A stretch of 36,873 nucleotides of DNA. It comes from Actinomycetes bacterium (lineage in GTDB: Bacteria; Actinomycetota; Actinomycetes; S36-B12; GCA-2699445). Where the stretch lies: NCBI GenBank assembly GCA_022599915.1, contig JAHZLH010000032.1, positions 1 through 36,873 on the forward strand. Direction: 5' to 3'. Of the stretch, positions 34,130 to 36,873 are shown one piece after another (positions within the stretch are counted from its first letter, which is position 1; every line of letters starts with the position of its first letter). The notes beneath the pieces were generated by a model that saw only the letters and a list, made by a program, of their open reading frames with translations, was not told the DNA's origin and did no database searches. Position numbers and translations under genes: made by a program.

Positions 34130-34944
34130 CCGGCCGCCAATGGGGAGGAAGACGAGCACAACGAATCAGACAACAATTCAAACCATTGATCGAAGCGTGC
34201 GAAGTGGTCTGCCACTTCTGCGGCCGCCTCATCATCCCCGGCCAACGATGGGACATCGACCACATCGAGGCACACGCCAACGGCGGCGGCGAACGCAACT
34301 ACATGGAAAGATTCACCACACAAACATTCAAAGCATCCGTGACCCGAGGCGCAGGTAAACGCGCACCACTGCTCACGTTGCATAACTACAAACAGTTCCC
34401 CGTTGGTAAACCAATCGAATGGGACATCCAACCCGACGGACTGTGGTGCAAGTGGCAGCTCGATCTGAAATCAGAAGCCGGTGCCGAAGCATTCCGGCAA
34501 GCCGACGAAGGCTTCGTCACAGGCCTATCGGTTGGCTTCGCTGCCGGACCCGAAGACCGCGTCGAAGAGATCGACGACCAGTTGCATGTCACCCGAGGCC
34601 CAGCCGAACTACGCGAAGTGTCACTGGTATCCGTACCCGCATACGCAGACGCAACAGTTGAAGCCACCCGAACAGCCACACCACCCAGCAAGAAACCAAC
34701 AGGCAACCTATCCACCAGACTCCGACAACTGAAAGCAAAACAAATAAGCGAACGGGTACTCCTCGCACGGCTAGGACCAGAAGCACGCGCCGACTACGAA
34801 CGAATCACACTCCAACGCTTCCACAAAGAATGCGCTGGACTCCTGTACCAAGGCGACCAGTTGCGGCTCAACGGTGACGGCAGCTTCACGCCATACGGAC
34901 CCAAACGGACACTCATCGCCAAAGCCCTCGACCTCGGACTGTGA
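34126..34944 (+). CDS. HNH (half) / HK97-type prohead protease fusion
   Basis: 272 residues. The N-terminus (about 23-58) is the first half of an HNH nuclease: CHFC, then DIDHIEAHANGG and the Asn of the motif. The usual second half with CxxC and NxxK is absent. Directly after, from about Met60, it reads as a caudoviral prohead maturation protease (peptidase U35/S78): LHNYKQFPVGK with the catalytic His86, FVTGLSVGF with Ser135, and LREVSLVSVPAY. Such proteases trim capsid scaffold during head assembly, so this gene is phage-derived. The C-terminus after about 180 is unmatched. Met60 could be an internal start for the protease alone. Codons are A/C-rich, unlike the neighbours. Confidence 0.7.
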   Translation: MTGRQWGGRRAQRIRQQFKPLIEACEVVCHFCGRLIIPGQRWDIDHIEAHANGGGERNYMERFTTQTFKASVTRGAGKRAPLLTLHNYKQFPVGKPIEWDIQPDGLWCKWQLDLKSEAGAEAFRQADEGFVTGLSVGFAAGPEDRVEEIDDQLHVTRGPAELREVSLVSVPAYADATVEATRTATPPSKKPTGNLSTRLRQLKAKQISERVLLARLGPEARADYERITLQRFHKECAGLLYQGDQLRLNGDGSFTPYGPKRTLIAKALDLGL

Positions 34945-35156
34945 CCACACCACCCCAACATCACAGAAAGTAACCAAAACCAGACGAAAACCAGCACACC
35001 CGTTTTTTGTAGCATGCATGCAAGACCTCGAACTCCCATGAATGAAATAAATCCCCCACACAGGATCGGGGTTCTGGGGCACATCAATCGGGTGGCTACG
35101 CAGAGTGATGGGGATGGCTGGTGGATGGCAGTAGTTGGCTACAGGATTGGAGCGTT

Positions 35157-36536
35157 GTGAAGGTTTGCAGCATTGACGGTTGTGATGGTGTGCATTACGG
35201 CCGCGGCTGGTGTCATCGCCATTATCAGCGGTGGCGTCGGAATGGTGATCCGTTGGCAACGGTTCGGCTTGCGCGTGGTGAGGTGGTGGTTTGTCGGGTT
35301 GATGGTTGTGATGGTGAGCACCGCGCACGGGGGTGGTGCGTTGAGCACTACAGCAAGTGGCGGAATTATGGTGATCCGTTGTGGGTGCGTCAGGTGGAGG
35401 TCTGCAGCATTGACGGCTGCGATAGCAAGCGTGATGCGCGCGGGTGGTGCAAGAAACACTACCGGCGGTGGCAGAAGTTCGGTGACCCGTTGAGGTCATC
35501 GGGGTATCAGTCGCGGGCTGGTGGTTGTGGCGTTGACGGATGCACCCAGCCGGTGATTGCGCGCCGGTTATGTCGTACCCACTACAAGCGGTGGAAGAGG
35601 TACGGCGACCCGTTAGGCAAAGCTGAACCCCCACCGGTCAGGTTGTGCGCCATTGACGGATGCGGCAACGCACATAAGGCGCGGGGATGGTGCCAGAAGC
35701 ATTACAAGGAACTTCATCACTCGGGGTCGTGCGCCATCGAGGGATGCGGCAACGCACATAAGGCGCGGGGCTACTGCAATAGGCACTACGGCCAGTGGCG
35801 CGAGAAAGGACCGTGTGCGGTGGATGGATGCAACCGGAAACAGAATGCGAAGGGCTACTGCAATAAGCACTACAGGGAACTTCGGGACCCTGGGCCGTGC
35901 AGCATTGACGGATGCAACGGTAGGCAGACTGCACGCGGCTGGTGCTTCAAGCACTACATGAGGTGGAAGAACCACGGCGACCCCGAGACAACGAAAGTCG
36001 GAACGCGACCCGACAACGAAACCCCAACGTGGACCTACCTCATCCGGCACGACGGGCACGGGCTGATGAAGGTAGGCATCGGATTAGACGCACGACTAAA
36101 GCAATGGCAGAAGCGCGGATGGAGGGTTGTGGTGGCGGTGAAACCGGAGCGGCAGGACGCTGCAGCGGTTGAGCGGTTGATTTTGGGTTTGTGGCGGGGT
36201 CAGTTTGAGTTGCCGCCAGTTGATAAGGCGATCCAGCCGGAGGGGTTTACGGAGATGGCGGCGTTGGATGTTGATGCGTTGGCGGCTGCTGCGATGCAAC
36301 TGACGCGGTTCGTGGGTCGGGAGACTGTGACGGCGCCGGATGTGTATTTCGCTCGTTACGGGATAGCCCTGGATCGTGGCGCAGGGTGCGGCTATGCGTT
36401 TTCGATTGTTGGCCAGTGTTGTTGCTGCGGGTGGTTTGACCGCGAGTATGTTGTTGGCGCCCGCGGTGGTGTCCGCGGACCAACTGGGAGTGATCGGCAA
36501 GAAGGACAACACGTGTGTGCTAGACCGGGGGGCTGA
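35157..36536 (+). CDS. Eight-zinc-knuckle array fused to GIY-YIG-like nuclease domain
   Basis: About 459 residues from a GTG preceded by GGAG. Eight tandem modules C-x4-C-x9-C-x2-H-Y, mostly followed by an RW-GDP-like motif, occupy about residues 4-275; the first is CSIDGCDGVHYGRGWCHRHY. Then WTYLIRHDGHGLMKVGIG and DARLKQW ... AAVERLILGLWR (about 291-350) resemble a GIY-YIG fold: TYL for GIY, KVGIG for YIG, an Arg in the next helix and a Glu further on. Likely a mobile-element DNA-binding nuclease. The last 48 codons overlap the next gene's signal peptide in another frame and look non-native. An ATG at 35121 is the alternative start. Confidence 0.75.
   Translation: MKVCSIDGCDGVHYGRGWCHRHYQRWRRNGDPLATVRLARGEVVVCRVDGCDGEHRARGWCVEHYSKWRNYGDPLWVRQVEVCSIDGCDSKRDARGWCKKHYRRWQKFGDPLRSSGYQSRAGGCGVDGCTQPVIARRLCRTHYKRWKRYGDPLGKAEPPPVRLCAIDGCGNAHKARGWCQKHYKELHHSGSCAIEGCGNAHKARGYCNRHYGQWREKGPCAVDGCNRKQNAKGYCNKHYRELRDPGPCSIDGCNGRQTARGWCFKHYMRWKNHGDPETTKVGTRPDNETPTWTYLIRHDGHGLMKVGIGLDARLKQWQKRGWRVVVAVKPERQDAAAVERLILGLWRGQFELPPVDKAIQPEGFTEMAALDVDALAAAAMQLTRFVGRETVTAPDVYFARYGIALDRGAGCGYAFSIVGQCCCCGWFDREYVVGARGGVRGPTGSDRQEGQHVCARPGG
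35658..35686. repeat. 29-bp direct repeat in finger array, copy A
   Basis: Identical to 35742-35770, 84 bases (28 codons) away; fingers 5 and 6 share GCGNAHKARG. Suggests recent duplication of a finger module. Confidence 0.8.
35742..35770. repeat. 29-bp direct repeat in finger array, copy B
   Basis: Identical to 35658-35686. The period equals one finger. Confidence 0.8.
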
Positions 36537-36873
36537 TTGCCGCGGCGTTTCGGCGAAATATGAGGCGGAGCACCACGGGAATCTGACGGGAGCGAACTTC
36601 AGTAACGCGAAACTGCACGGCGCGGATTTCCGTGGCGCCGATCTAACTAAAGCCAAAGGCACCTACGCCAACCTGAACCACGTGCAGGCGCATGGCGCGA
36701 AACTGCCCGGCGCGAAACTGCAAGGTGCCAGCCTGAAACATGGCCAGTTTCCTGCAGCGGACTTATCCAAATCCAAGTTCGGGCCGGTTAAGAAGGCAAA
36801 ATCCAAAGGTCGGCAACTACGAGCCAACCCCGGATGCGGCAAGAAATGTAAAGGTGCGGACCTGTCCAACGCG
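36394..36873 (+). CDS. Secreted pentapeptide-repeat protein (partial, runs off window)
   Basis: The frame is open from ATG at 36394 to the window end (160 codons). Signal peptide MRFRLLASVVAAGGLTASML then LAPAVVSA-DQ. After a short region with two Cys (NTCVLDRGADC) come pentapeptide repeats of the A(D/N)LxG type: LTGANFSNAKLHGADFRGAD, KLPGAKLQGASLKHGQF, and a final GADLSNA. Pentapeptide repeats form a right-handed quadrilateral beta-helix; the export signal argues for a surface or extracellular role. It overlaps the finger-array ORF by 143 bases in another frame. No good ribosome site precedes the ATG. Confidence 0.8.
   Translation, partial: MRFRLLASVVAAGGLTASMLLAPAVVSADQLGVIGKKDNTCVLDRGADCRGVSAKYEAEHHGNLTGANFSNAKLHGADFRGADLTKAKGTYANLNHVQAHGAKLPGAKLQGASLKHGQFPAADLSKSKFGPVKKAKSKGRQLRANPGCGKKCKGADLSNA

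Follow-up and report, generated by a model that had tools for sequence, protein, structure and literature searches.

An eight-finger zinc-module array joined to a GIY-YIG-type nuclease domain: a putative homing-type endonuclease gene on an actinobacterial chromosome

Which task might be fulfilled by a protein that carries eight tandem zinc-finger-like modules in front of a small nuclease-like domain and is encoded amid ordinary bacterial genes? The window, i.e. the whole stretch of 36,873 nucleotides analysed here, is for the most part ordinary chromosome, with genes for two glutamine synthetases, GlnE, NAD synthase, PanB and others, and a tRNA search of the window found none. The gene in question is an uninterrupted open frame of 459 codons (35157–36536, + strand) with a GTG start at 35157, an alternative GTG start upstream at 35121 and a stop codon at 36534–36536. 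A first-pass annotation had confined the feature to 35157–36350; the modules and the nuclease pattern indeed lie inside this span, but the frame itself extends to 36536.

Architecture and distribution of the finger array

The array consists of two blocks built from the same motif, C-x4-C-x9-C-x2-H-Y...GDP. Fingers 1–4 (35166–35615, +) are connected by long linkers with a spacing of 37–42 residues, and fingers 5–8 (35646–35984, +) follow each other with a start-to-start distance of exactly 28 residues (84 nt). The finger cores start at positions 35166, 35292, 35403, 35526, 35646, 35730, 35814 and 35898, which corresponds to steps of 126, 111, 123 and 120 nt from finger 1 on to finger 5 and of 84 nt each among fingers 5–8. 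All Cys and His residues are kept in all eight fingers, and the exact spacing reported at first reading was found in each of the eight modules of the frame. The label "zinc knuckle" originally given to them is inappropriate, as the usual CCHC knuckle has the spacing C-x2-C-x4-H-x4-C and all eight modules have C-x4-C-x9-C-x2-H. A degenerate DNA pattern of C-x4-C-x9-C-x2-HY has eight matches in the 2.44-Mb genome, all of them in the finger-nuclease gene, and the reversed pattern, used as control, has none in the whole genome; chance is thus excluded as the source of the array.

Two exact 29-bp copies of GGATGCGGCAACGCACATAAGGCGCGGGG (35658–35686 and 35742–35770, +) lie within fingers 5 and 6. 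They are 84 bp apart and form the longest exact repeat in the array, and the 60-nt cores of the two fingers are 85% identical in DNA. Repeat and similar cores are a plain sign of a one-module duplication. Finger duplication, suggested earlier as a way in which copy number may change, is visible in the DNA itself, in the 29-bp repeat and the 84-nt period of fingers 5–8.

The module type C-x4-C-x9-C-x2-H is not contained in Pfam, and neither the window protein nor any of its fingers taken singly was matched by the CapR, DUF4379 and DUF723 profiles. The protein is matched by phrog_5351, a family of finger-array HNH endonucleases, in six stretches (E 7e-62), and no Pfam match to an HNH domain was found in it. 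Of 14 fingers compared with Pfam Zf_WRKY19, the best resembled it at E 3e-4 and finger 4 of the window at E 0.05, below the cut-off; this may be taken as no more than a lead. TFIIIA, the best PDB match of the fingers (E 0.06–0.55), was rejected as a relative since the likeness rests mainly on the C-x4-C and a His.

Arrays or single fingers of this type were read in viral contigs, in eight genomes including that of the window, in two plasmids and in the Arthrobacter phage Jinkies, in which a three-finger HNH gene is located between the genes for the capsid maturation protease and the scaffold protein. The visible partner domain, assigned by eye or annotation, is mostly HNH; some arrays stand alone, and the window protein is the only case in this sample in which the fingers accompany the nuclease domain described below. 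The expectation that fingers adjoin a nuclease fold consequently holds only in part: two arrays (L067, L099) have no recognisable nuclease, and HNH is a commoner partner than GIY-YIG. The fingers are thus to be regarded as a mobile module rather than as a dedicated GIY-YIG partner. One of the two arrays, a six-finger C-x4-C-x9-C-x2-H protein of ca. 330 residues, was read on contig C5 of genome G229 (L067).

The C-terminal nuclease domain and its relatives

The C-terminal part of ca. 115 residues (36003–36350, +) contains the GIY-YIG-like pattern with Arg and Glu already noted in the first-pass annotation; it was confirmed in frame with the Tyr in WTYLIRH, the motif KVGIG, the Arg and the Glu. 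The key residues, numbered from 36003, are Y12, K23, G25, R31, E57, G81 and E84. Over 22 homologues Tyr12, Gly25, Arg31, Glu57, Gly81 and Glu84 are unvarying, and K23-V-G25 of the second motif is invariant or nearly so. In one column of the first helix the window domain has a Trp where at least 90% of the homologues have a His; the missing His is not decisive because Odn of phage ICP1, a T5orf172 domain that cuts a new target by means of a borrowed DNA-binding domain, is active without it (PMC8263062).

The proposed relationship to the GIY-YIG, T5orf172 and MUG113 families is reflected unevenly in profile searches. When a profile of 21 homologues, with the window row left out, is run against the frames of the window, the domain scores 53.7 bits (E 3e-16); the highest-scoring of 2,000 shuffled controls reaches 7.6 bits, and hhalign of the domain against seven homologues gave 96%. 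In contrast, Pfam and NCBIfam profiles do not recognise the domain above their cut-offs, and a match to the Pfam profile of MUG113 is not listed. With 12.1 bits against the Pfam cut-off of 20 for T5orf172 (PF10544), the domain does not formally belong to that family by its sequence score. Several homologues taken alone match Pfam weakly, with best E-values of 0.0015 for GIY-YIG and 0.00056 for T5orf172, and some members on plasmids are named "GIY-YIG nuclease family protein" by NCBI.

An AF2 model of the domain based on a 12-row alignment (pLDDT 70, pTM 0.63; block-mean pLDDT of the core 66–89) has the order β-β-α-β-α, with strands at residues 10–16, 21–27 and 40–46 and helices at 29–37 and 53–68. 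A model calculated without alignment (pLDDT 37) was set aside. Foldseek against the viral models of BFVD returned eight matches at E ≤ 1e-3, including proteins named T5orf172, MUG113 and GIY-YIG at a probability of 1.00. In a direct Foldseek search against the PDB no match reached E ≤ 0.001, and none of the matches listed was a GIY-YIG chain; after re-alignment to PDB structures (VIA) the GIY-YIG nucleases Slx1 (Z 5.8) and HIGLE (Z 5.5) rank best with modest Z-scores, and the GIY-YIG domains of UPF0213 and UvrC are lower in the ranking. A PDB profile search produced only designed repeat proteins, which were rejected as helix matches. A structural match to the GIY-YIG fold, as presumed from the sequence pattern, is thus seen in the predicted strand and helix order and among viral models, and modestly in the PDB. 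Altogether, membership of the C-terminal domain in the GIY-YIG superfamily is well supported, and within it the domain is of a T5orf172/MUG113-like type.

About 60 actinobacterial homologues of the nuclease domain, encoded on chromosomes or on Streptomyces plasmids, were read; homologues occur in 36 plasmid records, mostly from Streptomyces. A domain search in 166 genomes of the window's order gave one weak relative. With a two-row profile, 14 of 395 genomes of the class were positive, the window's own not counted, and larger profiles gave more, namely 25 of 200 sampled genomes of the Streptomycetaceae family and 12 of the 166 in the order. Only one annotated phage carries a homologue, at E 0.01. 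The literature searches made for this analysis yielded no description of this domain family as a group. The domain tree was discarded as a guide to the donor lineage, since the window row forms a long branch of unresolved place.

In most of the ca. 60 homologues the nuclease domain is preceded by tandem copies of another zinc module, and the C-x4-C-x9-C-x2-H finger occurs in none of those read. The commonest module is "LEPYPG...W.CxCxxCG..V.P...G.GC.YC", which in one protein (L079) falls just short of the Pfam threshold for the CapR homology domain; other homologues have DUF4379 arrays, with seven copies in L049. Array-less homologues exist as well, for example in phage Satis (gp177, L096) and on a 192-kb viral contig (L074), where a stand-alone GIY-YIG-like domain is followed by a C-terminal extension; the Satis gene adjoins one annotated as a RelE-like toxin. 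On contig C221 of genome G067 (L103) two neighbouring genes both encode this GIY-YIG-like domain, and a zinc array is absent from each. In a Nanopelagicales MAG (G066; L080/L030) the zinc-module array is spread over three frames, reflecting either decay or long-read indel errors, and at a contig end of a Flavobacteriaceae MAG (L085) an ssb-like frame continues into the final part of the actinobacterial nuclease domain, probably by misassembly.

Genomic surroundings

Upstream of the gene lies a phage scrap (34126–34944, +) in which a single frame comprises the first half of an HNH nuclease (residues 29–55) and, fused behind it, an HK97-type prohead protease (residues 58–184). Other phage structural genes were not recognised among the neighbouring frames scanned, nor were relatives of the protease in the phage collection. 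The finger gene follows a prohead protease, in a position similar to that of the finger-HNH gene of Jinkies.

The end of the frame (36292–36536, +) is encoded by DNA shared with the same-genus genome G004: positions 36292–36578 are 83% identical to it without gaps, and no nuclease precedes the stretch there. The left flank (34820–35073) is 68% identical to another genome of the genus, G003. A genome joining the left flank (to 35073) with the right flank (from 36292), and hence representing an empty site, was not found. Between 36292 and 36393 the mismatches to G004 are distributed over the codon positions as 7, 10 and 13, i.e. with no clear coding signal, and from 36394 on the frame overlaps a pentapeptide gene out of frame. 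Given the DNA shared with the sister genome and the lack of a clear codon signal, the last residues of the protein are probably not original. The overlapped gene (36394–36873) encodes a secreted pentapeptide-repeat protein, is cut by the contig end and has paralogues on contigs C72, C3 and C63. The segment 33309–33392 belongs to a dispersed repeat family in this genome, with related copies close to pentapeptide genes on contigs C3 and C30.

Proposed function and relation to known nucleases

We consider it reasonably probable that the gene encodes a free-standing endonuclease of the homing type, came from a phage or a plasmid and is lodged in prophage scrap. The most likely function would be that of a homing-type endonuclease with extended site recognition, the latter being what we infer from the length of the array. 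That the fingers bind zinc and recognise DNA, and that the protein cuts and homes, is likewise inferred. In this scenario each predicted finger would bind one zinc, the fingers would jointly hold a long DNA site and, in analogy to the T5orf172 enzymes and Odn, the array would place the tethered GIY-YIG domain at a chosen site, where it might cut or nick nearby DNA via the Tyr, the Arg and a Glu-bound metal. Repair of the break from the gene-bearing copy would then spread the gene, as with homing endonucleases of the T5orf172 and I-TevI types. The protein itself may have originated by exchange, an HNH-type finger array having been joined to a domain that usually stands behind CapR-like or DUF4379 arrays, and the array may subsequently have been lengthened by one-finger duplications.

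A nuclease serving conflicts between mobile elements, by plasmid or phage interference rather than by spreading itself, appears unlikely. The homologues on many plasmids (compared with a single annotated phage at E 0.01) and the precedent of Odn (PMC8263062) would suit such a role, but the window gene does not reside on a recognisable plasmid, adjoins the head-protease scrap and gave no defence match in PADLOC. Somewhat more doubtful still is a decaying or inactive leftover in the prophage scrap: the intact frame of 459 codons and the retention of every finger Cys and His and of the Tyr, Lys-Gly, Arg and Glu of the nuclease argue against it, even though the phage neighbours are truncated or fused, the first-helix His is replaced by Trp and the window row is a long branch in the tree. 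The host-type DNA at the C-terminus also implies that the gene may be decaying. Very improbable is a loss of cutting activity that leaves a DNA-binding regulator or a protein binding RNA. CapR, whose origin lies in the binding domains of T5orf172 nucleases (PMC10448857), would be the precedent; the absent first-helix His would agree with such a loss, but the active-site Arg and Glu are invariant in the window domain and the 21 homologues.

Going beyond the homing-type endonuclease that we prefer, one may speculate, as a long shot, that the array reads DNA modularly with a few base pairs per finger and that lineages retarget one GIY-YIG domain by swapping or duplicating unrelated zinc modules, as a natural counterpart of engineered zinc-finger nucleases. 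If so, the window gene would show retargeting under way, since it has a module of a third kind and a recent duplication of one finger. The compact eight-finger natural protein offers a direct test case for a modular recognition code. Tandem zinc modules of at least three kinds are joined to a single actinobacterial family of GIY-YIG domains, and finger arrays that elsewhere accompany HNH nucleases can be transferred to it; these findings support array exchange as a general route by which mobile nucleases change their targets. The group as a whole is common, occurs both on chromosomes and on plasmids of actinobacteria, has arrays that reach about ten modules and merits a survey.

Among the closest known counterparts are two groups of array proteins. 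The finger-array HNH endonucleases of actinophages and their relatives (phrog_5351, phrog_1271; Jinkies gp7, L008, L066, L098) share the C-x4-C-x9-C-x2-H-Y...GDP finger type in an N-terminal position and in two to five copies, but their nuclease is HNH and that of the window protein is of the GIY-YIG type. Conversely, the "EPYPG...CxxC" array proteins of actinobacteria and Streptomyces plasmids (L040–L048, L075–L083, L091–L094), some annotated as "GIY-YIG nuclease family protein", have a homologous C-terminal nuclease domain behind as many as about ten zinc modules in an N-terminal array, which are however CapR-like and in no case C-x4-C-x9-C-x2-H fingers.

Nucleases combining a zinc array with T5orf172 have already been described from phages as modular homing endonucleases; of 229 phage T5orf172 homing endonucleases, 200 carry zinc-finger domains, many of them several, and domain swapping was seen (PMC10448857); the initial analogy to homing nucleases with separate binding modules is thereby substantiated. 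The window protein shares with those bearing CapR-, DUF723- or DUF4379-type arrays the beads-on-a-string arrangement of one GIY-YIG-superfamily domain and tandem zinc modules, as well as the recombining intragenic repeats and swapped arrays (PMC10448857), and differs from them in a different-looking module, a domain below the T5orf172 cut-off and a location on an actinobacterial chromosome. What is new here is a zinc-array GIY-YIG-type nuclease with a third finger type. In I-TevI of phage T4 a GIY-YIG nuclease is likewise tethered to separate DNA-binding parts including a zinc finger (PMC10448857), but there the nuclease is N-terminal, the finger is single and the gene is intron-borne. Odn, a T5orf172 nuclease that acquired a foreign DNA-binding domain, resembles the window protein in lacking the first-helix His/Tyr, despite which Odn cuts (PMC8263062); it differs in its RepA_N binding domain and its target, a satellite origin. 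The nuclease domain belongs to a widespread actinobacterial group that normally carries other zinc modules, so the protein gives the impression of a familiar type of mobile nuclease whose DNA-binding arm has been exchanged.
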